From Microvirga lupini (GTDB lineage Bacteria; Pseudomonadota; Alphaproteobacteria; Rhizobiales; Beijerinckiaceae), in NCBI RefSeq assembly GCF_014191055.1, contig NZ_JACHWB010000008.1:62001-126000 (forward strand): DNA of 64,000 nt. The letters are read 5' to 3'. Position 1 is the first letter of the stretch, and each line of letters starts with the position of its first letter. The notes beneath the pieces are model-generated. The model did no database searches, was not told where the DNA came from, and saw only the letters and a program-made list of their open reading frames with translations. Positions 5,516 to 17,990 of this stretch are shown here, one piece after another. The translations under genes were made by a program, and so were the position numbers.

Positions 5516-7912
5516 ATGGCTGACGCACGGCACCTGAGCATCTTGAAGGAACTCGAGCGCAAGGTGCTCTGGCTCTCCACCTGGACCATTCATAACGCCA
5601 ATCATCTGCGTCCCAATGAGGACGGGATGAAGATCGGCGGGCACCAGGCTTCCTCCGCGTCCCTCTCGACCATCCTGGCGGCGCTCTACTTCTCGGTGCT
5701 GCGCCCCGAGGACCGGGTGGCGGTGAAGCCCCATGCCAGCCCGATCTACCACGCGATCCAGTATCTCTTCGGCCGACAGACCCGCGAGAAGCTGGAAAAT
5801 TTCCGCGGCTACAAGGGTGCGCAATCCTATCCGTCCCGCACCAAGGACATCGACGACGTCGATTTCTCCACCGGCTCGGTAGGACTGGGCGTCGCCCAGA
5901 CGCTGTTTGCCAGCCTCGTGCAGGATTACGTGAAGGCCCATGGCTGGGCGAAGGACAAGCCGGAAGGCCGCATGATCTCTCTAGTGGGTGATGCGGAGAT
6001 GGATGAGGGCAACATCTTCGAGGCCCTGCTCGAGGGCTGGAAGCACGGCATCCGCAACACGTGGTGGATCATCGACTACAACCGCCAGAGCCTCGACGCG
6101 GTGATTCGCGAGGGCCTGTGGCAGCGCTTCGAGGCGCTCTTCCGCAATTTCGGCTGGGACGTGGTGGTGCTCAAGCACGGCTCCCTGATGCAGGAGGCCT
6201 TCAAGGAGCCCGGCGGCGACAAGCTTCGCGACTGGATCGATTCCTGTCCCAACCAGCTCTATTCCGCCCTGACCTATCAGGGCGGCGCCGCCTGGAGGAA
6301 GCGCCTGCTCGACGATCTCGGCGACCAGGGGCCGGTCACCCGCCTCATCGAGAAACGCTCAGACGAGGAGCTGGCCGAGCTCATGGCCAATCTCGGCGGT
6401 CACGACCTCCCGAGCCTGCTCGACGCCTTCGAGAAGGCGCGCCAGCATGATCGCCCGGTCTGCTTCCTCGCCTACACCATCAAGGGCTTCGGCCTGCCGC
6501 TCGCCGGCCACAAGGACAACCATTCCGGCATGCTGACGCCTTCCCAGATGGAGTCCTGGCAGAAGACGCAACGTGTGCGCCCCGGCCACGAATGGGACAA
6601 GTTCGAAGGGATGAAGACATCCCAGGCGGAGATCGAGCGCTTCCTGAGCGAGGTCCCTTTCATCCAGAAGGGCACCCGCCGTTATGCCGCGCCGCCCGTG
6701 CCGGTGCCCGAAAAGCTAGCCTTCCCGGCCAATCCGGCCATGTCGACCCAGCAGGGTTTCGGCCTCATCCTCAACGAGCTGGCGCGCGCGGACAGCCCGC
6801 TCGCCGCGCGGGTCGTCACCACGGCGCCGGACGTGACCGTCTCGACCAATCTCGGCGCCTGGGTGAACCGGCGTGGGCTCTATGCCCGCGAGAGCCTTGT
6901 CGATACCTTCAAGAAGGAGCGGATTCCCTCCACCTATAACTGGGAATTCTCGCCATCCGGCCAGCATATCGAGCTCGGCATCGCCGAGATGAACCTCTTT
7001 ATCGTGCTCTCGGCCCTCGGCCTGTCTCATTCCCTCTTCGGCGAGCGGATCCTGCCCATCGGCACCCTCTACGACCCGTTCATCTATCGCGGGGCCGACG
7101 CCCTGAACTATGCCTGCTACCAGGATTCCCGCTTCATGATCGTCGCCACGCCCTCCGGCGTGACGTTGGCTCCGGAGGGAGGGGCGCACCAGTCCATCGG
7201 CACGCCGCTGGTCGGCATGGCGCAGGATGGGCTGGCCTCCTTCGAGCCCGCTTTCGTGGACGAACTCGCCGTGATCATGCGATGGGCCTTCGACTACATG
7301 CAGCGCGAAGGCGAAGGTGAGCCGAACGAGAGAACCTGGCTGCGCGACGAGACCGGCGGCTCGGTCTACTTGCGCCTGTCCACCCGCACCCTGGAGCAGC
7401 CGCAGCGCGAGATGACGCCGGAATTGGCCGACGACATCATGGCCGGCGCCTATTGGCTCCGGAAACCCGGCCCGAACGCTCAGGTGGTCGTGGCCTATAC
7501 GGGCGCGGTGGCGCCGGAGGCGATTCAAGCGGTGGGGCTCATGGCCGAGGACCGGCGCGACGTTGGGCTGCTCGCCATCACGTCCGCCGACCGGCTCAAT
7601 GCCGGCTGGACGGCGGCGCACCGCGCCCGCGAGCGCGGCCTTGTTCATGCCCGTTCCCATGTGGAGCGTCTGCTCGCCGACGTGCCGCCCCATTGCGGTC
7701 TGGTGACGGTGATCGACGGCCACCCGGCGACGCTCGCCTGGATGGGCTCGGTCATGGGCCATCGCACCCGCTCGCTAGGCGTGGAGCATTTCGGCCAGAC
7801 CGGGACGGTCAAGGACCTCTACCGCCATTTCGGCATCGACGCCCAGGGCATCATCGCGGCCGCCGAGATGATCGCTCCCGGCCGCCCGATCCGGCATTTG
7901 AAGGCCGTGTGA
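5516..7912 (+). CDS. Transketolase-family TPP enzyme, AceE-like (homodimeric-type E1)
   Basis: 798 residues. The TPP/Mg site is visible as SLVGDAEMDEGN near 156 with IIDYNR near 185, preceded by GGHQASSASL near 41 and FSTGSVGLG near 117. The middle domain carries FSPSGQHIELGIAEMN and the PDH-like PSGVTLAPEGGAHQS. Order and motifs resemble the alpha-only pyruvate dehydrogenase E1 (AceE), but it is about 90 residues shorter, and no E2 or E3 gene is nearby. In rhizobia such proteins are usually named transketolase. A 2-oxoacid decarboxylase or transketolase activity is therefore expected but the substrate is open. The ATG at 5516 is set by a GGGAGGG site; the frame is open further upstream only because it runs through the tRNA. 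Confidence 0.85.
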   Translation: MADARHLSILKELERKVLWLSTWTIHNANHLRPNEDGMKIGGHQASSASLSTILAALYFSVLRPEDRVAVKPHASPIYHAIQYLFGRQTREKLENFRGYKGAQSYPSRTKDIDDVDFSTGSVGLGVAQTLFASLVQDYVKAHGWAKDKPEGRMISLVGDAEMDEGNIFEALLEGWKHGIRNTWWIIDYNRQSLDAVIREGLWQRFEALFRNFGWDVVVLKHGSLMQEAFKEPGGDKLRDWIDSCPNQLYSALTYQGGAAWRKRLLDDLGDQGPVTRLIEKRSDEELAELMANLGGHDLPSLLDAFEKARQHDRPVCFLAYTIKGFGLPLAGHKDNHSGMLTPSQMESWQKTQRVRPGHEWDKFEGMKTSQAEIERFLSEVPFIQKGTRRYAAPPVPVPEKLAFPANPAMSTQQGFGLILNELARADSPLAARVVTTAPDVTVSTNLGAWVNRRGLYARESLVDTFKKERIPSTYNWEFSPSGQHIELGIAEMNLFIVLSALGLSHSLFGERILPIGTLYDPFIYRGADALNYACYQDSRFMIVATPSGVTLAPEGGAHQSIGTPLVGMAQDGLASFEPAFVDELAVIMRWAFDYMQREGEGEPNERTWLRDETGGSVYLRLSTRTLEQPQREMTPELADDIMAGAYWLRKPGPNAQVVVAYTGAVAPEAIQAVGLMAEDRRDVGLLAITSADRLNAGWTAAHRARERGLVHARSHVERLLADVPPHCGLVTVIDGHPATLAWMGSVMGHRTRSLGVEHFGQTGTVKDLYRHFGIDAQGIIAAAEMIAPGRPIRHLKAV

Positions 7913-7924
7913 CCGGCTTCAGCC

Positions 7925-8551
7925 TTAGGTCTGCCCTGTGCGCAGGGCTACCGCTGCAACACCGGCGCCTATCAACAGGCTACCGCCGGTTCGGTTGATC
8001 ACGCGCATGGTCCGGGGGCTCTGCACCATGCCGCGCGCCCGTGAAGCGATGAGCGCGTAGGTGAAGGCGTTCGCAACGGCCAGCGTCAGGAAGGTTGCCG
8101 CGAAGATGCCGACCTGGGGCAGGAGAGGCAGCCCAGGATCGATGAACTGGGGCAGGAACGCCACGAAGAAGGTCAGGCCCTTCGGGTTGAGCGCCGTCAC
8201 GATCCAGGCATGGCCCAGCATCCTGAGAGATGAGGCCGCATCGGCGCGCGGCTTGGCATCGAGGGTGCCGCCGGCCCGCCAGAGCTTGATTCCCAGCCAG
8301 ACGAGATAGGCGGCACCGCACCATTTGAGAATCGTGAACAGAGTGGCCGATGCGGCGAGCACGGCTCCGAGGCCGAGGAGCGACAGGGCCATGGCGGTGA
8401 AATCGCCGAGCGCCACTCCCACGGCCATGGGCAGAGCCGTGCGCCAGCCCTGGCCGAGGGCATAGGATACGACCAACAGGATCGTCGGCCCAGGAATGAC
8501 CAGCAGGATAACGGAGGCCGCCGCGAAGGCGAGCCAAGTCTCGAATGTCAT
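7925..8551 (-). CDS. LysE/RhtB family amino-acid exporter
   Basis: 208 residues of an inner-membrane protein with about six hydrophobic segments. The LysE signature is visible near residue 18 (LLVIPGPTILLVVSYALGQG) and again in ALNPKGLTFFVAFLPQF near 120. Family members export amino acids such as lysine, homoserine or threonine by proton exchange. It converges with the TPP enzyme gene 12 bases away and is divergent from the ABC exporter. The substrate cannot be named. Confidence 0.92.
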   Translation of the reverse strand: MTFETWLAFAAASVILLVIPGPTILLVVSYALGQGWRTALPMAVGVALGDFTAMALSLLGLGAVLAASATLFTILKWCGAAYLVWLGIKLWRAGGTLDAKPRADAASSLRMLGHAWIVTALNPKGLTFFVAFLPQFIDPGLPLLPQVGIFAATFLTLAVANAFTYALIASRARGMVQSPRTMRVINRTGGSLLIGAGVAAVALRTGQT

Positions 8552-8741
8552 GATGGCCTCTTCCTCTCCTAAGATCCTGCCATACAGCCATGGGAAAGGA
8601 TGGATTGTCGAGGGGCCGCAGCGCGCTGCCCGGAGAGCGGCAAAGCATCGCTGAGGCTCTGAAACTATTCCGAAAGATTTGCGGCCGAATGGTTCACATG
8701 CTAACCGCGGGCCTTACCAAATCAGGGGTTTCACAGAGTCC

Positions 8742-10523
8742 ATGGCGTCCAAGAGCATCCTTCGGGGGGATACCCTTCCCTTGATCAGCCGTCTGTGGCG
8801 GGACTGGATGCGTCCGCATCGGAAGACGCTCGCCGTGGTGGTCCTGCTGGTCGCCCTGGTGTCCGGCTCGACCGGCCTCTACCCGGTCCTGATCAAGGCG
8901 GCATTCGACGCTTTCGACGTCAAGGATGCGCAGGCCATCATGCTGGCCCCGCTCTTCGTGATCGCCGTGACCTCCGTGAAGGGCTTTTCGCTGCTGGCGC
9001 TTACCGTTCTGACCAACAAGGTGGTGACCCGGATCGAGGCCGACATGCAGACGGCCCTCTATGGGCACATGATCGATGCCGATATCTCCCAGATCGATCG
9101 CGAGAGCCCGGCGGCCCTCACCCAGCGCTTCACCACGGACTTCTCCTTTATCCGGGAGGCGCTCACCCGCCTCTCTACGGTGTTTCTGCGCGAGTCGACG
9201 ACCCTCATCGCCCTGATCGCCGCCATGCTCTGGATCGATCCGGTCCTGACCATCGTGGCGGCCGTGATCGCGCCCTTCTTCGCATACCCGGTCAGCAAGA
9301 TCGGCCGGAAGCTGCGCCGGGTGGCCGCCTCGACCCAGGAGCAGACCGGCGTCATGGCGAGCCTCATCACCGAGAGCCTTGCCGGCACCCGCATCGCCAA
9401 GACCTATGGGCTCGAGGGCTATCTGAAGGCCAAGGCCGCCAGGACCTTCGACGACGTCCGCGGCCTCAAGATGAAGGCGGCCAATGCCCGCGGACGGATG
9501 GATCCGGTGCTCGAGACGGGCGGCGGCCTCGCCGTGGCGATCGTCCTGATGCTGATCGGTCAGCGCATTCTCTCGGGCGCCAGCTCCGTGGGCGATTTTA
9601 CCGGCTTCGTCAGCGCCCTCGTCATGGCGGCGCATCCGGTCCGGGCGCTCGGCAACCTCAACGCTATCGTCCAGGAGGCCGCGGCCGCCCTGCAGCGCAC
9701 CTTCGACGTGATGGATCAGGCGCCCCGGATCCAGGACAAGCCGGGCGTCGAGCCCCTGCGGCTGACCGGCGGCGAGATCCGGTTTGCGGACCTGTCCTTC
9801 TCCTATGATGGAGAGGCGGCGGCCCTCGACCATGTCGATCTGGTTGCCGAGGCCGGGCAGACGACGGCCCTGGTGGGCCGCTCCGGCTCGGGCAAGTCGA
9901 CGCTCCTGTCCCTCGTGCCGCGCCTGTACGACGCGACGAGAGGCACCGTGCTGATCGACGGGCAGGACGTGCGCGACGTCTCCCTGGCGAGCCTGAGGCA
10001 GGCTGTCGCGGTGGTGAGCCAGGATGTGATCCTCTTCGACGATACGATCCGGGCAAACATCGCCTTCGGACGGCCCGGCGCCTCCGACGAGGAGATCGTG
10101 AACGCCGCCAAGGCGGCGGCGGCCCACGACTTCATCATCCGGATGCCGGAAGGCTACGACACGGTGGTCGGGCCGGGCGGCGGCCGCATGTCGGGCGGTG
10201 AGCGCCAGCGCATCTCGCTCGCCCGCGCCTTCCTGAAGGACGCGCCGATCCTGCTCCTCGACGAGGCGACGAGCGCCCTCGATTCCGAATCGGAGCGGCT
10301 GGTGCAGGATGCCATCCGCAAGCTCATGAAGGGCCGCACCACCCTGGTGATCGCCCACCGCCTCTCGACGGTCCGCAATGCGGAGAAGATCGTCGTGATG
10401 GAAAAGGGCCGGGTTGCGGAAACGGGTACGCACGAGGCTCTCATCGCCAAGGCGGGCGCCTATGCTCGCCTGCACCGCCTGCAGCTGTCCGACGACAGCG
10501 AGCCCAGCCTGGCAATGTCCTAA
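8742..10523 (+). CDS. MsbA-like ABC exporter (fused permease-ATPase)
   Basis: 593 residues: a six-helix transmembrane domain (about 20-330) fused to one nucleotide-binding domain. Walker A is GRSGSGKST, the signature MSGGERQRISLARA, Walker B ILLLDEATSALD, and the switch His is in VIAHRLSTV. Proteins of this type act as homodimers; the closest common role is lipid A-core flipping across the inner membrane (MsbA). The lipid A acylation cluster starts 1 kb downstream, which makes a lipid or LPS substrate a reasonable inference. The start codon ATGGCG at 8742 is preferred over in-frame codons upstream because the homologous part begins there. Confidence 0.9.
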   Translation: MASKSILRGDTLPLISRLWRDWMRPHRKTLAVVVLLVALVSGSTGLYPVLIKAAFDAFDVKDAQAIMLAPLFVIAVTSVKGFSLLALTVLTNKVVTRIEADMQTALYGHMIDADISQIDRESPAALTQRFTTDFSFIREALTRLSTVFLRESTTLIALIAAMLWIDPVLTIVAAVIAPFFAYPVSKIGRKLRRVAASTQEQTGVMASLITESLAGTRIAKTYGLEGYLKAKAARTFDDVRGLKMKAANARGRMDPVLETGGGLAVAIVLMLIGQRILSGASSVGDFTGFVSALVMAAHPVRALGNLNAIVQEAAAALQRTFDVMDQAPRIQDKPGVEPLRLTGGEIRFADLSFSYDGEAAALDHVDLVAEAGQTTALVGRSGSGKSTLLSLVPRLYDATRGTVLIDGQDVRDVSLASLRQAVAVVSQDVILFDDTIRANIAFGRPGASDEEIVNAAKAAAAHDFIIRMPEGYDTVVGPGGGRMSGGERQRISLARAFLKDAPILLLDEATSALDSESERLVQDAIRKLMKGRTTLVIAHRLSTVRNAEKIVVMEKGRVAETGTHEALIAKAGAYARLHRLQLSDDSEPSLAMS

Positions 10524-11975: not shown

Positions 11976-12437
11976 ATGCGCCTCGAATATTTTGAAATGA
12001 TCGACCGGGTGACGAGCCTCGACCGCGAGACCAAGCGGATCGAGGTGACCTCCGTGGTCCCGCAGGAAAGCCCGGTTTTCGAAGGGCATTTCCCCGGCCA
12101 CCCTCTCGTGCCCGGCGTTCTCCTCACCGAAACCATGGCCCAGGCCTCCGGCTATCTCGTGCTGGGCCTCATGGGCTTCACCCACATGCCGTTCCTCATG
12201 GGAGTCGACAAGGCGCGCTTTCGCACCTTCGTCGGACCGGGTACGGTGCTCACCGTCACGGCGCAGCTGGAGCACGAAGGCTCGGGCTATGCGGTGACGA
12301 AGGCCAGGATCACGGCCGAGGGCAAACCGATCTGCGACGCGGAGCTGCGTTTCCGGATCATGCCCTTTCCTGACGGCATGGACGGTCTGATGCGCGCTCA
12401 AGCCAAGCGCATCGGCCTCCTGGAGGAGAGTGTCTGA
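11976..12437 (+). CDS. fabZXL: FabZ-type 3-hydroxyacyl-ACP dehydratase of the VLCFA cluster
   Basis: 153 residues with the hot-dog dehydratase motif FEGHFPGHPLVPGVLL (catalytic His38) and the catalytic Glu52 in LTETMAQASGY. It should dehydrate 3-hydroxyacyl-AcpXL during chain elongation beyond C18. Its TGA overlaps the ATG of fabF2XL by one base, so the two are translationally coupled. Dedicated copies like this are distinct from the housekeeping fabZ beside lpxA. Confidence 0.94.
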   Translation: MRLEYFEMIDRVTSLDRETKRIEVTSVVPQESPVFEGHFPGHPLVPGVLLTETMAQASGYLVLGLMGFTHMPFLMGVDKARFRTFVGPGTVLTVTAQLEHEGSGYAVTKARITAEGKPICDAELRFRIMPFPDGMDGLMRAQAKRIGLLEESV

Positions 12438-13555
12438 TGCGGGATGTCGTCATTACGGGAGTGGGCCTCGTCTCCTCGGCCGGAGAAGGCCTGGAGGCGC
12501 ATCTGACGGCGCTTGCCGGCGGCGCTCCGAACACGGATGCGACCAGTTTCGAGCCTTTCCCGGTGCACCCGGCGGTAACCCTCGAATGGGACCGGCAGAT
12601 CCCCAAAAAATCCGACCAGCGCCAGATGGAGCCGTGGCAGAAGCTCGGCTGCTATGCGGCTGGCCTCGCCCTCGACGCCGCCGGCGCCAAGGAGGATGCG
12701 GCCTTGAAGAGCCGCATGCAGCTCATCGTCTCGGCCGGCGGCGGCGAGCGCGATTACGCCGTCGACGGGCAGATCCTGACCGGATTGCGGAAGGCCGACA
12801 ATCCCGGCGTCTTCCTCAACGAGCGCCTGATGGGCGACCTGCGCCCGACGCTGTTTCTCGCGCAGCTCTCGAACCTCTTGGCCGGCAACATCTCCATCGT
12901 CCATGGAGTCACGGGCGCCTCCCGCACCTTCATGGGCGAGGAATCGAGTGGCGTCGATGCCATCCGCATCGCCCGCGAGCGCATCGCCTCGGGCCAGGAC
13001 GACATCTTCCTCGTCGGCGGCTCGTACAATGCCGAGCGCCCCGACGTGCTCCTCATCTACGAGATGGGCGGTTTCCTCTGGAAGAAGCCTTACGCGTCCG
13101 TCTGGGAGCGTTCCGCGGAGGGCGGCATGATCCTCGGATCGGGCGGCTGCTTCCTGGTGCTCGAATCCCGCGAGCACGCCGCCGCGCGCGGCGCAAAGCC
13201 CCTTGCGGTGATCGCGGGCGTCGCCTCCGACCGCAGCCGCCGTAAGCCGGGCAGCGTCGAGGGCGCGCTTCATGGCCTTTCGCAGCAGCTTGGAGCCAAG
13301 CCCGATCTGGTGCTGTCCGGCGCCACGGGCATCAAGGGCATCACGGACGAAGAGCAGGCCGCCCTCAAGGACATCGCGCCGGGCGCGGCCGTCCATGCAA
13401 CCGGCGATCTCGTCGGCCACACCATGGAGGCCCAGGCGCCCATCGGCGTCGCCCTGGCCGCGGGCCTGATCGCGGGGGGCAAGGCCGGTGAAGTGCTCGT
13501 CACCTCCATCGGACATTGGCGCGGCGAAGGCGCCATCCGGCTCACCAAGGCTTGA
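12437..13555 (+). CDS. fabF2XL: Ketosynthase-fold protein lacking the catalytic Cys (FabF2XL)
   Basis: 372 residues with the thiolase/ketosynthase fold: MRDVVITGVGLVSSAGEG at the start and VGHTMEAQAPIGVALA near 326. At the nucleophile elbow, HGVTGASRTFMGEESSG, the position of the active-site Cys appears to be Met166, judged by aligning the preceding HGV with the HGV of E. coli FabB. The first catalytic His region (HGTxTxxND in active enzymes) reads GATGIKGITDEE; only the second His (His328) remains. The gene is full length, without frameshift, and is coupled on both sides, so decay is unlikely. By analogy with type II polyketide KS-beta subunits it could be a chain-length-setting partner of FabF1XL. 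That role is inference. Confidence 0.9.
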   Translation: MRDVVITGVGLVSSAGEGLEAHLTALAGGAPNTDATSFEPFPVHPAVTLEWDRQIPKKSDQRQMEPWQKLGCYAAGLALDAAGAKEDAALKSRMQLIVSAGGGERDYAVDGQILTGLRKADNPGVFLNERLMGDLRPTLFLAQLSNLLAGNISIVHGVTGASRTFMGEESSGVDAIRIARERIASGQDDIFLVGGSYNAERPDVLLIYEMGGFLWKKPYASVWERSAEGGMILGSGGCFLVLESREHAAARGAKPLAVIAGVASDRSRRKPGSVEGALHGLSQQLGAKPDLVLSGATGIKGITDEEQAALKDIAPGAAVHATGDLVGHTMEAQAPIGVALAAGLIAGGKAGEVLVTSIGHWRGEGAIRLTKA

Positions 13556-13565
13556 GGAGAAGGCT

Positions 13566-14846
13566 ATGGCGCTTCGCGACACGAAAGGCCGCCCGCTCGT
13601 TGCCGTCACCGGCATGGGCGTGGTCACGTCCCTCGGCCAGGGCAAGGACGACACCTGGGCCGCTCTGACGGCTGGCCAGTCCGGCATTCACCGCATCGAG
13701 CGCTTCCCCACCGAGGGCCTGCGCACCACGATTGCCGGCACCATCGACTCGGTCGATGTGGAGCCCTTCTGCGCCCCCATGCTGTCCGAACGGCTCGCCA
13801 TGCTGGCGGCCGAGGAGGCGGTAGGGCAGTCGGGGCTGGCCTCCAGCGACTTCCCGGGTGCCCTCTTCATCGCCGTGCCGCCGGTCGAGATGGAATGGCC
13901 GCAGCGCGAAGCGCTCGCCAAGGCCTCGGGTCAGGAGGGTGATGTCACCTACAAGGACCTGCTGAAGGCAGCGGCCTCAGGCGAGTTCAAATCCTGGCAC
14001 GACCTGTTCATCTTCGGCACGGTGGCCGACCGGGTCGCCGACCGCTTCGGCACCAGGGGCTCGCCGATCTCGCTCTCGACCGCCTGCTCGTCCGGCGCCA
14101 CGGCGATCCAGCTCGGCGTCGAGGCGATCCGCCGGGGCGAGACGGATGCGGCTTTGTGCATCGGCACCGACGGCTCCGTGAATCCGGAATCGCTGATCCG
14201 CTTCTCCCTGCTGTCGGCGCTCTCGACCCAGAACGAGAACCCCGAGGGCGCGTCAAAGCCCTTCTCCAAGAACCGCGACGGCTTCGTCATGGGCGAGGGC
14301 GGAGCGGCCCTCGTGCTGGAGAACGCGGAATCCGCCAGGGCGCGCGGCGCCAAGATTCTCGGCTACGTGCTCGGCTGCGGCGAGAAAGGCGACGGCTTCC
14401 ACCGCACCCGCTCCTCGCCGGACGGCATGCCGGCCATCACGGCGATCCGCGAAGCCCTGGCCGATGCGGGCCTCGCGCCGGATAACATCGACTATATCAA
14501 CGCCCACGGCACCTCGACGCCGGAGAACGACAAGATGGAGGCCATGAGCTGCACCGCCGTGTTCGGCGAGCGCATGGCGAGCGTTCCGATCTCCTCCAAC
14601 AAGTCGATGATCGGACACACGCTCACCGCCGCCGGCGCGGTCGAGGCGGTGATGTCGCTCATGACCATCGGCACCGGCCGCATCGCGCCGACGATCAACT
14701 ATCAGGTGCCGGATCCGGCGATTCCCCTCGACGTGGTGCCCAACGTCGCCCGCGACGCCAGCGTGTCCTACGTGCTCTCCAATTCCTTCGGCTTCGGCGG
14801 CCAGAACACCTGCCTCGTCTTCGGGGCCGAGCCGAAAGGGGCTTGA
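13566..14846 (+). CDS. fabF1XL: Beta-ketoacyl-ACP synthase II (FabF1XL)
   Basis: 426 residues with the full catalytic triad of elongating ketosynthases: Cys174 in SLSTACSSGATAI, His314 in INAHGTSTPEND and His351 in SMIGHTLTAAGAVEA, plus the C-terminal NSFGFGGQN. It condenses malonyl-ACP with acyl-AcpXL in the cytoplasm. The ATG follows GGAGAAGG, 10 bases after fabF2XL ends. Together with the Cys-lacking neighbour it could form an alpha/beta heterodimer; the sequence shows only adjacency and complementary active sites. Confidence 0.94.
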   Translation: MALRDTKGRPLVAVTGMGVVTSLGQGKDDTWAALTAGQSGIHRIERFPTEGLRTTIAGTIDSVDVEPFCAPMLSERLAMLAAEEAVGQSGLASSDFPGALFIAVPPVEMEWPQREALAKASGQEGDVTYKDLLKAAASGEFKSWHDLFIFGTVADRVADRFGTRGSPISLSTACSSGATAIQLGVEAIRRGETDAALCIGTDGSVNPESLIRFSLLSALSTQNENPEGASKPFSKNRDGFVMGEGGAALVLENAESARARGAKILGYVLGCGEKGDGFHRTRSSPDGMPAITAIREALADAGLAPDNIDYINAHGTSTPENDKMEAMSCTAVFGERMASVPISSNKSMIGHTLTAAGAVEAVMSLMTIGTGRIAPTINYQVPDPAIPLDVVPNVARDASVSYVLSNSFGFGGQNTCLVFGAEPKGA

Positions 14847-14850
14847 GATC

Positions 14851-15597
14851 ATGACACGGGTTCTGGTGACGGGCGGGGGCAAGGGCGTTGGCGCTGCCAT
14901 CGTGCGGGCGCTCGTGGCCGCCGGCCACGACGTCGACTTCACCTACCGCTCATCCGGCGATGCCGCGAAAGCATTGGCCGACGATCTGATGCAGGCCAAT
15001 CCCGCCCGCACCATCAAGGCCCATGAGGTCGATCTCGCCGACAAGGCCGCCCTCGAGGCCTTCTGCGAGATGCTGGAGGGCGATAGCTTCTTCGGGCTCA
15101 TCCACAATGCCGGCCAGCCCTACGATGCGCTCGCCGCCATGATGCAGCAGGACAAGGCCGAAGCCGCCATGCAGGTGAACTTCTGGTCGCTCACCCGCAT
15201 CGCCAAGGCGCTCATGCGCGGCATGATCCGCGCCAAGCAGGGCCGCATCGTCGCCATCGGGTCGGTGGCGGCGCTCCAGGGCAATCCCGGCAATGCGGCC
15301 TATGCGGCCTCGAAAGGCGCGCTGATCTCCTACTGCCGCACGCTCTCGGTCGAGACCGCCAAGCGCGGCGTCACCGTCAACGTGATCGCCCCGGGCTTCA
15401 TCGATACGGACATGATGGCCCCTTACGCGGCCTATCGCGACAACATGGAAAAGCAGATCCCAGCCGGGCGGTTCGCCAAGCCGGAGGAGATTGCGGGCCT
15501 CGCGGCCTTCCTGATGAGCGAGCCCGCCGCCTACATCACCGGCGCGGTGCTGCCCATCGACGGCGGGCTGACGTCCATGCTGGGCGTGCATCGGTAA
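14851..15597 (+). CDS. SDR-family 3-oxoacyl-ACP reductase of the VLCFA cluster
   Basis: 248 residues, classical short-chain dehydrogenase: cofactor loop TGGGKGVGAA near residue 7, HNAG near 83, catalytic Ser in AIGSVAA and YAASKGA (Tyr-x3-Lys) near 150-155, and the closing TGAVLPIDGGL. The sequence fits a FabG-type ketoreductase using NAD(P)H. It starts 4 bases after fabF1XL, so it is part of the same transcript. Its presence supplies the ketoreduction step inside the cluster. As I recall, the six-gene Rhizobium arrangement lacks this gene, so it may mark a lineage variant. Confidence 0.9.
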   Translation: MTRVLVTGGGKGVGAAIVRALVAAGHDVDFTYRSSGDAAKALADDLMQANPARTIKAHEVDLADKAALEAFCEMLEGDSFFGLIHNAGQPYDALAAMMQQDKAEAAMQVNFWSLTRIAKALMRGMIRAKQGRIVAIGSVAALQGNPGNAAYAASKGALISYCRTLSVETAKRGVTVNVIAPGFIDTDMMAPYAAYRDNMEKQIPAGRFAKPEEIAGLAAFLMSEPAAYITGAVLPIDGGLTSMLGVHR

Positions 15598-15873: not shown

Positions 15874-16896
15874 ATGCGCTCCCTCCAGCTCTTCGGCGAC
15901 CGTGACCTTCGCATCACCGAGATCGACGCCCCGTCGCCGCCCGGTCCGGGCGAGGTGCAGGTGCGGGTCAAGGCGCTGGCGCTGAACTTCCTCGATGTCT
16001 GGGGCTTTCGCGGCATGGCGTTCGCCAAGCGAAAGATGCCCCAGGCCGTGGGCGTCGAGGCTTCGGGCGAGATCGCCGCGGTGGGCGAGGGCGTGACCCG
16101 GTTCAAGGCGGGCGACCCAGTCACCATGTACGGGGCCGAGACCTGCGGCCATTGTGCGGCCTGCCGCAAAGGCTGGGACAATCTGTGCGAGAATGTCGCC
16201 GGCATCATGGGCTTCCATATCGACGGCTTCGCCCGCGAGCTGATCAACCGGCCGGAGCGGCTCGTGATCCCGGTCCCCAAGGGCGTCAGCTTCGAGCAGG
16301 CGGCCTGCGCGCCCATCGGCTTCGGCACCGTGCAGCATATGCTGTTCGACAACGCCAAGCTCGAGCCCGGCGAGTCGATCCTGGTCCATGCGGGCGGGTC
16401 CGGCATCGGCACGGCGGCGATCAAGATGGCCAAGGCCATCGGCTGCACGGTCTATACGACCGTGGGCGACGACGAGAAGGGCGAGAAGGCGAAGGCCTTG
16501 GGCGCCGATCACGTGATCAACTACCGCACCGAGCGCTTCGAGGGCGAGGTGCGCAGGCTGACCAAGCGCAAGGGCGTCGACGTGGTGTTCGAGCATGTGG
16601 GCGCGGAAACCTGGAACGGCTCGCTCCTGTGCCTCAAGCGGGGCGGCCGTCTCGTCACCTGCGGGTCGACTTCGGGCGTGTCCGCCACCATGAACCTGAT
16701 GCAGCTCTTCCAGCAGCAATACCGGATTTTTGGGTCCTTCGGCTGCCGGATCGAGAACATCAGCCAGTCCCTGGACAAGATGGCTCAGGGCATGACGCCG
16801 GTGATCGACGCCGTCTTCCCCCTCGACGAGTTCCAACAGGGGCTTGAGCGGCTCGAGGGCAGAAAGGTTTTCGGCAAGGTGATCGTGACGTTCTGA
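15874..16896 (+). CDS. adh2XL: Medium-chain dehydrogenase/reductase of the VLCFA cluster (Adh2XL)
   Basis: 340 residues. The N-terminal GroES-like domain keeps the four-Cys structural zinc lobe (ETCGHCAACRKGWDNLC, near 89-105). The catalytic-zinc Cys expected near residue 40 is missing (ALNFLDVWGFRG), so it resembles quinone-oxidoreductase or enoyl-reductase-type MDRs. The Rossmann loop is HAGGSGIGTAAI near 170. In this cluster a missing step is enoyl-ACP reduction, which such an enzyme could provide; this is inference. The ATG at 15874 is chosen because residues upstream in frame are encoded by a dispersed repeat. Confidence 0.88.
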   Translation: MRSLQLFGDRDLRITEIDAPSPPGPGEVQVRVKALALNFLDVWGFRGMAFAKRKMPQAVGVEASGEIAAVGEGVTRFKAGDPVTMYGAETCGHCAACRKGWDNLCENVAGIMGFHIDGFARELINRPERLVIPVPKGVSFEQAACAPIGFGTVQHMLFDNAKLEPGESILVHAGGSGIGTAAIKMAKAIGCTVYTTVGDDEKGEKAKALGADHVINYRTERFEGEVRRLTKRKGVDVVFEHVGAETWNGSLLCLKRGGRLVTCGSTSGVSATMNLMQLFQQQYRIFGSFGCRIENISQSLDKMAQGMTPVIDAVFPLDEFQQGLERLEGRKVFGKVIVTF

Positions 16897-17030: not shown

Positions 17031-17990
17031 GTGCAGCAGCCCCACCGTCCCCGCAGCCTTGTCTCGCGCCTCACGGAGACGGTCATGGTCGGCGTCGTGC
17101 GCGGCGTCTTCGGCCTGGCGCGTGCCTTGGGTCCTGAGCGCTCCGGTGCCGTAGGCGCTGCGATCACCCGTACCTTCGGCCCCCTGCTCAAGGCACACAA
17201 GACGGCTCTGAACAACATCCGCGCCGTCTACCCGGAGAAACCGGAAGCCGAGATGAAGGCGCTGGCGCTCGCCGCCTGGGACAATCTCGGCCGAACAGGC
17301 GGTGAATATCCGCATCTCGGGCGCCTGTTCGATTTCGATCCCGACAGCGAGATCCCCGGCCGCACCGAGGTCGATGGGATCGATCACTTCCTTAAGCTTC
17401 GCGACGACGGCAAGCCGGGTCTGATCTTTTCGGCGCACCTCGCCAACTGGGAGCTGCCGGCCATCTGCGCCGCCCGCTTCGGGCTCGACACCACGGCGGT
17501 GTTCCGCGCGCCCAACGACCCGGCCATCGCCCGCGTGCTGCACGAGATCCGCAGCGAGACCATGGGCAATCTGGAAGCGGCCCGGCAGGGTGCGGCCTTT
17601 GCCATGCAGGGGGCGCTCGAGAAGGGTGGGCATCTCGGCATGCTCATCGACCAGCATTTCACCCGCGGGGTGATCGTCAACTTCATGGGCCGCCCGGCCC
17701 TGGTGAACCCGATCCTGGGAAAATTCGCACGCCGGTTCGACTGCCCGGTTCACGGAGTGAGGGTGATCCGTTTGCCGAACCATCGCTTCCGCCTCCAGCT
17801 CACGCCGCCTCTGGAACTGCCTCGCGATCCGGATGGCCAGATCAACGTGCAGGGCGCCATGCAGGCCATGACCTCGGTGGTGGAGGAATGGGTGAAGGAA
17901 TATCCTGAGCAGTGGCTGTGGATGCATCGCCGCTGGCGGGTGCCTGCCAAAGCATCGGACCCAAAAGTGGAATCCACTTTTGGGATCTGA
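17031..17990 (+). CDS. lpxXL: LpxXL, lipid A very-long-chain acyltransferase (LpxL/HtrB family)
   Basis: 319 residues, GTG start. The HX4E catalytic motif of the lysophospholipid/lipid A acyltransferase family is SAHLANWE (His136, Glu141), followed by VFRAPNDP near 163 and LGMLIDQHF near 203. LpxXL transfers the long hydroxy acyl chain from AcpXL to lipid A at the inner membrane. It is the last gene of the cluster. The C-terminal residues after MHRRWRVPAK (ASDPKVESTFGI) and the stop are encoded by a dispersed repeat of family B, so the original end of the protein was probably altered. Confidence 0.93.
   Translation: MQQPHRPRSLVSRLTETVMVGVVRGVFGLARALGPERSGAVGAAITRTFGPLLKAHKTALNNIRAVYPEKPEAEMKALALAAWDNLGRTGGEYPHLGRLFDFDPDSEIPGRTEVDGIDHFLKLRDDGKPGLIFSAHLANWELPAICAARFGLDTTAVFRAPNDPAIARVLHEIRSETMGNLEAARQGAAFAMQGALEKGGHLGMLIDQHFTRGVIVNFMGRPALVNPILGKFARRFDCPVHGVRVIRLPNHRFRLQLTPPLELPRDPDGQINVQGAMQAMTSVVEEWVKEYPEQWLWMHRRWRVPAKASDPKVESTFGI

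Follow-up and report, generated by a model that had tools for sequence, protein, structure and literature searches.

FabF2XL, a ketosynthase-fold protein lacking the catalytic cysteine, as the probable non-catalytic partner of FabF1XL in the very-long-chain lipid A acylation cluster of Microvirga lupini

The current study concerns two adjoining genes, fabF2XL and fabF1XL, within a 64,000-nucleotide stretch of the Microvirga lupini genome (contig NZ_JACHWB010000008.1, positions 62,001 to 126,000; hereafter, the window). The window includes the known acpXL-lpxXL cluster for very-long-chain acylation of lipid A, which is encoded entirely on the plus strand in the order acpXL, fabZXL, fabF2XL, fabF1XL, a fabG-like gene for a short-chain dehydrogenase/reductase (SDR), adh2XL, and lpxXL (Table 1). 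Both open reading frames (ORFs) of ketosynthase (KS) fold are located where an earlier inspection of the letters alone, termed here the sequence-only reading, had put them: the fabF2XL start overlaps the fabZXL stop by one base, and 10 bases separate the fabF2XL stop from the fabF1XL start. FabF2XL is 94–95% identical to its homologues in Microvirga arabica and M. soli, matches PF00109 in its N-terminal domain (73 bits), and exceeds the cut-off of NF005084/PRK06519, which NCBI describes as FabF2XL-type beta-ketoacyl-acyl carrier protein (ACP) synthase; PF02801 was not matched at E 0.001.

An active elongating ketosynthase carries a Cys-His-His set together with a Lys, and FabF2XL has kept the second His alone. 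This was evident from 112 FabF2XL sequences. One is the window protein, 80 are the best of 589 confirmed relatives, and the other 31 come from loci in 30 genomes hand-picked among the 62 FabF2XL-positive genomes of our order and class scans; due to the choice of the best 80 relatives, the set is biased toward close kin. The only cysteines of FabF2XL, Cys72 and Cys238, both lie away from the nucleophile position, which instead aligns with Glu169, the second Glu of the motif FMGEESSG. The same placement was obtained from five printed HMMER alignments (of 69 matching distinct solved ketosynthase sequences), from MAFFT alignments with FabF, FabB, KS-alpha, and the chain length factor (CLF, or KS-beta) of type II polyketide synthases (PKS), and from profile alignments of FabF2XL with FabF, FabF1XL, CLF, and KS-alpha. 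The sequence-only reading was therefore right to call FabF2XL Cys-less, as no alignment that we inspected puts a Cys at this position, but it erred in assigning a Met to the site, since Met166 is located three residues earlier. Its observation that the HGTxTxxND motif is replaced holds as well: GATGIKGITDEE stands where HGTxT is expected, and the His is missing in all 111 sequences having letters there. The Lys position is occupied by G, A, S, Q, or T in 111/111 sequences (G or A in 104). Retention of the second catalytic His, His328, had gone unmentioned. Other positions of FabF2XL are strictly maintained, with Glu168, Glu169, Arg105, Asp106, and Asp110 each present in 112/112 sequences, Met166 and Glu104 in 111/112, Glu364 in 111/111, and Glu331 in 110 of the 111 with letters at that position.

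FabF1XL is an intact enzyme by the same measure. The sequence-only reading had credited it with all three catalytic residues, and C174, H314, and H351, as well as K346 and F408, are found in 109/109 sequences (the window protein, 96 from the 111 related loci, and 12 from Methylobacterium genomes). The FabF1XL model retains the whole KS fold, with low confidence at residues 214–240, and the first 42 Foldseek matches to it are all FabF. Within FabF1XL residues 99–150, the usual FabF GSGIGG pocket loop is replaced by a different stretch, AVPPVEMEWPQR, in which P106, E108, and W111 are invariant among 30 aligned rows; judging from this stretch, the FabF1XL tunnel is probably unusual as well.

The two genes also travel together. 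Among 199 genomes of the order, FabF2XL (E up to 1e-60) and FabF1XL (E up to 1e-130) occur in an identical set of 49. In the 289 genomes of the class scan, FabF2XL exceeds its cut-off in 15, of which 14 also encode FabF1XL at E up to 1e-130, eight of these above the FabF1XL family cut-off; in the fifteenth, a 630-contig assembly (G191), FabF2XL is cut by a contig end and no FabF1XL was found at E up to 1e-130. Of 397 genomes of the phylum, 44 encode FabF2XL, and every one belongs to the class. At the level of individual loci, both genes are present on the same strand in 96 of the 111 related loci, with a median gap of 12 bp and a distance within 100 bp in 85. A MAG (metagenome-assembled genome) labelled Asaia bogorensis is unusual in having approximately 0.9 kb between the two genes (L105, positions 7664–8577) vs the 12 bp median. 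Of the 15 loci without fabF1XL, 12 are labelled Methylobacterium (L059, L062, L063, L064, L065, L068, L069, L071, L085, L091, L100, and L106) and encode acpXL-fabZXL-fabF2XL, with no fabF1XL over the 2.1 to 6.5 kb available downstream; all 12 of these genomes encode a fabF1XL gene elsewhere, indicating a split cluster. The other three lie at contig ends: L131, from a genome with two fabF1XL genes (G327), L151, from the genome G191 in which none was found, and L081.

Three genomes of one genus contain a second acp-fabZ-F2-F1-fabG-adh cluster (L185, L186, and L187). Between two of them (G297 and G367), the second-cluster FabF2XL copies are 82% identical over the first 215 residues and 42% over the C-part, and the corresponding values for the main copies are 93% and 86%. 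In the third (G337), the second-cluster copy is frame-broken, with matching sequence continuing in another frame, which rules out its short ORF as a natural truncation.

The fold of FabF2XL is that of a ketosynthase. Its AlphaFold2 model has a predicted local distance difference test (pLDDT) score of 88.7 and a predicted template modelling (pTM) score of 0.89, and its first Foldseek match is the actinorhodin CLF (1tqy_B, 3.8e-23), with the actinorhodin KS at rank 43. The profile score of FabF2XL is greatest against CLF (174), with FabF at 166, FabF1XL at 143, and KS-alpha at 141. The model is of low confidence at residues 101–110 and 136–145. Such regions might betray an absent partner, but this idea was dropped because the FabF1XL model is also low at 214–240 and the alignments are shallow. 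In a 45-row tree, which excluded ApeC and a single CLF-like fragment, all FabF2XL group together (100/100), and the branch leading to them has a length of 2.05.

The principal new evidence for a pairing of the two proteins is the asymmetry of their conservation. The most conserved ten-residue blocks of FabF2XL (own numbering) are 131–170 (0.86–0.97) and 101–110 (0.90), and its most conserved stretch, RPTLFLAQLSNLLAGN (residues 136–151), corresponds to approximately FabF 131–146, near the dimer interface. In FabF1XL, blocks 121–150 score 0.47, 0.59, and 0.63, the lowest block of the protein among them, its other low blocks being 61–70 (0.58), 71–80 (0.63), and the C-terminal end (0.50). Each stretch was also mapped on FabF and its entropy ranked against all segments of equal length, such that low percentiles denote conservation; the FabF control consisted of 25 of 30 loci, five having been removed by a motif filter, and the FabF2XL fragment L151 was omitted here as well as from the loop and insertion comparisons. 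At FabF 132–145, FabF2XL ranks at percentile 1, as does FabF, vs 7 for CLF, 42 for KS-alpha, and 75 for FabF1XL. At 146–160, the values are 5 for FabF2XL, 40 for FabF1XL, 42 for both FabF and CLF, and 70 for KS-alpha. The order is reversed toward the catalytic residues: FabF2XL and FabF1XL rank at 18 and 1 for the elbow (161–182; FabF 5, CLF 5, KS-alpha 27), 39 and 20 at 300–308 (FabF 3, CLF 17, KS-alpha 4), 63 and 1 for the Lys/His stretch (333–346; FabF 8, CLF 6, KS-alpha 1), and 23 and 3 at 394–405 (FabF 4, CLF 2, KS-alpha 3). In 100 subsamples of 12 pairs, FabF2XL was the more conserved at 132–145 in 100/100 and FabF1XL at 333–346 in 100/100. We take the FabF segment of about 131–146, including residues 133–134, to line the acyl pocket of the partner subunit. 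An asymmetry of this kind is what a FabF1XL:FabF2XL dimer predicts, because FabF2XL would line the live pocket of FabF1XL, whereas the equivalent segment of FabF1XL would face a dead one. It appears to resemble that of CLF vs KS-alpha in the 12 control pairs. In a FabF homodimer, the interface comprises residues of about 140–180 and neighboring helices, which touch the partner loops at about 260–270 and 398–402 (PMC5206705; papers are cited by PMC identifier).

Additional differences are found in the loops. Using the gating loops 1 and 2 defined in PMC7138838, the GFGG of loop 1 is replaced in FabF2XL, and loop 2 spans 14–15 residues in FabF2XL (111/111), 14–18 in the 11 of 12 CLFs listed, and 21 in FabF, KS-alpha, and FabF1XL. 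After the motif GGGERD, FabF2XL carries an insertion of 12 residues that is missing from FabF and CLF. From FabF position 101 to position 131, FabF2XL has 43 residues (106/111) vs 31 in FabF (25/25) and CLF (12/12), and KS-alpha, with 41, is likewise 10 longer than FabF and CLF in this region. The gatekeeper residues of the actinorhodin CLF presumably lie in the same region. A shortening of four residues shared by FabF1XL and KS-alpha was examined as well. Between FabF 132 and 164, there are 29 residues in FabF1XL (109/109) and KS-alpha (12/12) vs 33 in FabF (25/25), CLF (12/12), and FabF2XL (111/111), and aligning the FabF profile to that of either family shows the shortening as well. However, HMMER sets the FabF1XL gap earlier, a CLF–FabF1XL profile alignment shows one residue there, and a single clade of FabF1XL and KS-alpha is neither established nor rejected (p 0.43); we regard the shortening as suggestive and do not rely upon it.

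Based upon these features, we consider FabF2XL to be a pseudo-ketosynthase that forms an elongase with FabF1XL, as its obligate subunit without catalysis, with a probability of roughly 0.7. From the sequences, we infer that the two proteins associate physically and that FabF2XL may line the tunnel of its partner. FabF1XL would extend an acyl chain carried by AcpXL through condensation with malonyl units, using Cys174, His314, Lys346, and His351, while FabF2XL would provide the far wall of the FabF1XL acyl tunnel through the invariant segment 136–151 and the extended 101–119 region. Each round would be finished by the FabG-like reductase, FabZXL, and Adh2XL of the cluster, presumably in that order, and LpxXL would transfer the C26–C30 chain to lipid A. 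The sequence-only reading had also suggested that FabF2XL may set the C26–C28 chain length of rhizobial lipid A. A limiting role in chain length is plausible as a next hypothesis but more tentative, and we place it somewhat short of even odds.

The sequence-only reading had proposed a KS-alpha/KS-beta-like pair, and this stands in part. Like a CLF, FabF2XL has the KS fold without the nucleophile Cys and adjoins an intact KS, and the one-sided catalytic loss, co-occurrence, and asymmetric conservation favor such a pair indirectly. What does not carry over is the CLF residue pattern, in which Gln (as EQ) replaces the Cys, the Lys is kept, and Arg replaces the second His. FabF2XL thus probably works in the manner of a CLF while having a residue pattern of its own.

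Several observations weigh against this interpretation. The compared CLFs have Gln for Cys (His in CLF_Kit, with DH for EQ) where FabF2XL has Glu, and their Lys and Arg are the opposite of the G or A and retained His that are typical of FabF2XL. The C-half sites are poorly conserved in FabF2XL and conserved in CLF. The compared regions were picked after viewing the block conservation profile, FabF1XL and KS-alpha have letters at 10 of the 14 columns of the 132–145 stretch, and the KS-alpha/CLF control, being 12 chosen pairs (11 Streptomyces and 1 Kitasatospora), has low power. The Foldseek margin is small, as rank 2 is 6kxd_A, a chain named ketosynthase, at 4.4e-23, with FabF at 1.4e-22. Furthermore, the best tree sets FabF2XL beside FabF with weak support (32/57), and groupings of FabF2XL with CLF (p 0.42) or with FabF1XL (p 0.26) are both not rejected; descent of FabF2XL from actinomycete CLFs is accordingly neither established nor excluded by the tree.

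Published genetics bear on the same question. In Agrobacterium fabrum, the lipid A of a fabF2XL::Gm mutant has lost its very-long-chain acid, which is partly restored by fabF2XL alone (PMC11901934). Since the chain is lost altogether rather than shifted in length, this fits an obligate subunit and has no bearing upon length control. Against it, the complementation was partial, and the insertion may be polar, because fabF2XL-fabF1XL-adhlA2XL-lpxXL form one unit there (PMC11901934). A complemented adhl strain contained 26:0 as a minor acid in place of 30:0 (PMC11901934), and thus length is not governed by one gene alone and other genes matter. In Bradyrhizobium ORS278, fabF1XL and fabF2XL mutants were not obtained (PMC5613085). 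In both organisms the gene bears this name and sits in this cluster, and it was either required for the very-long-chain acyl group or yielded no mutants, yet its product is called 3-oxoacyl-ACP synthase II or fatty acid elongation protein, and PMC7663294 lists fabF2XL as a beta-ketoacyl-ACP synthase. The terms "heterodimer" and "catalytic cysteine" are absent from the texts of PMC11901934 and PMC5613085, and a search of the open literature, with subscription papers mostly outside its reach, found no paper stating that FabF2XL is Cys-less or that it is a CLF-like partner.

Other explanations for a maintained, Cys-less ketosynthase have to be considered. FabF2XL could have gained another catalysis, such as hydrolysis, editing, or acyl transfer, through Glu168, Glu169, Glu331, Arg105, and Asp106 together with His328, and would then not be a subunit of FabF1XL. 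The invariant charged residues at or near the former active site count against the heterodimer in this respect, as they could mean a new activity, and His328 is retained in 103/111 sequences. Nevertheless, we find this unlikely, given that His328 is lost in the other eight, that the C-half sites are weakly conserved, that the second-cluster C-parts have diverged far more than their first 215 residues, and that FabF2XL is confined to the same order genomes as FabF1XL. Less likely still is a FabF1XL homodimer with FabF2XL placed elsewhere in a larger complex, as a scaffold or for AcpXL docking. FabF1XL retains the whole KS fold, which favors such an arrangement, but the FabF1XL segment that corresponds to the pocket lining varies, ranking at the 75th percentile vs the 1st in homodimeric FabF.

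KSQ domains have Gln in place of the Cys and keep both His, which take part in decarboxylation. The Glu of FabF2XL is chemically close to that Gln, and the protein might on this basis be a malonyl-ACP decarboxylase that primes the pathway. We reject this as very improbable: the residue is Glu and not Gln in 112/112 sequences, the first His is missing and the Lys replaced wherever there are letters (111/111 each), and a long acyl-ACP would be the more likely primer for a C26–C30 elongase. The idea to which we give the least credence, and also reject, is that FabF2XL is the decaying, functionless remnant of a tandem duplication, as the loss of all catalytic positions bar the second His might suggest. 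Relative to 11 relatives labelled Microvirga, the ratio of nonsynonymous to synonymous substitution rates (dN/dS) is 0.06–0.21 for FabF2XL and 0.07–0.16 for FabF1XL, and 67 FabF2XL positions are at least 97% identical; such a low dN/dS indicates a maintained protein and not a relic, and disruption of fabF2XL has the published cost of chain loss (PMC11901934).

A non-catalytic FabF2XL would have a number of parallels. In KS/CLF, dimer formation is obligate and one KS is "inactive" (PMC12664062). The actinorhodin KS-CLF (PDB 1tqy) similarly joins an intact KS to a Cys-less partner of KS fold, and the Glu-Glu of FabF2XL is matched there by Glu-Gln. Streptomyces CLFs have a short loop 2, as FabF2XL does, and show the asymmetric conservation at 132–145 too, but are without its 12-residue insertion, and the KS-CLF product is a polyketide rather than a lipid A acyl chain. 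Iga11-Iga12 of ishigamide biosynthesis is a KS-CLF of a highly reducing type II system and is structural match 2 of FabF2XL; the matched chain, 6kxd_A, is probably the active partner given its name, and ishigamide is a short polyene of secondary metabolism. The aryl polyene pair ApeO-ApeC belongs to a Gram negative, fatty acid synthase-like pathway in which a KS has a partner helping to line the cavity (PMC8358021). By MAFFT alignment, Escherichia coli ApeC likewise lacks the nucleophile Cys, but it is about half the size, with one thiolase fold, whereas FabF2XL is full length, and the sequences are not closely alike. In cispentacin biosynthesis, the pseudo-KS partner of the AmcF-AmcG pair, a "cyclization factor" and not a length factor, is soluble only with its KS (PMC10698177); that system differs in performing one elongation plus cyclization, and the partner is without known KS motifs (PMC10698177). 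FabF (beta-ketoacyl-ACP synthase II) is a homodimer of the same fold, to which FabF1XL is most alike and beside which the best tree weakly sets FabF2XL, but there one intact protein fills both roles, unlike the FabF1XL/FabF2XL pair.

Among the neighboring genes (Table 1), the fabG-like gene 3' of fabF1XL is matched in 70 of 110 related loci but does not figure in the six ORFs reported for the A. fabrum cluster in PMC11901934. Upstream of the acyl cluster, positions 8742–10520 (plus strand) encode an MsbA-like lipid A export ATP-binding cassette (ABC) transporter, with a TIGR02203 score of 512 bits that does not reach the cut-off of 602.

Table 1. Genes of the very-long-chain acylation cluster and key sites of FabF2XL and FabF1XL; positions are those of the window.
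Feature	Position	Strand	Support
acpXL, dedicated acyl carrier protein, 93 aa	11566..11847	+	NF005079 171.4 bits, cut-off 83
fabZXL, 3-hydroxyacyl-ACP dehydratase	11976..12437	+	PF07977 74 bits; FabZ models scored under their cut-offs
fabF2XL, probable pseudo-ketosynthase, 372 aa	12437..13555	+	NF005084 543.5 bits, cut-off 320
GGGERD, FabF2XL residues 101–106, followed by the 12-residue insertion vs FabF and CLF	12737..12754	+	R105, D106, D110 112/112; E104 111
RPTLFLAQLSNLLAGN, FabF2XL residues 136–151	12842..12889	+	most conserved FabF2XL stretch
Glu168-Glu169, Glu169 in place of the nucleophile Cys	12938..12943	+	112/112 sequences
Ala296, in place of the HGT His	13322..13324	+	A 105, S 3, T 3, gap 1 of 112
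His328, retained second catalytic His	13418..13420	+	103/111 sequences with a residue there
fabF1XL, intact ketosynthase, 426 aa	13566..14846	+	NF005076 755.4 bits, cut-off 629
Cys174, FabF1XL nucleophile	14085..14087	+	109/109
FabG-like SDR reductase	14851..15597	+	PF13561; TIGR01830 204.8 bits, below cut-off 297.75
adh2XL, zinc-binding dehydrogenase/enoyl-reductase-like	15874..16896	+	PF00107, PF08240
lpxXL, lipid A very-long-chain acyltransferase	17031..17990	+	NF005120 434.7 bits, cut-off 273

The papers cited here on the very-long-chain lipid A cluster describe both of its "FabF" genes as synthases or elongation proteins. If one of the two is instead a dead partner, then the elongase would be a single heterodimer, which could be purified and its structure solved, and the need for two genes would be explained. 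It is conceivable, although we would not yet wager on it, that a primary lipid A pathway of Alphaproteobacteria employs a KS:pseudo-KS heterodimer in the style of type II PKS to elongate very long chains. Its dead subunit, bearing an invariant Glu-Glu pair and a 12-residue extension close to the end of the tunnel, would then form the wall that both accommodates and limits the C26–C30 chain. A dead partner in this cluster would by itself extend pseudo-ketosynthase partners beyond secondary metabolism and into a pathway of membrane lipid synthesis.

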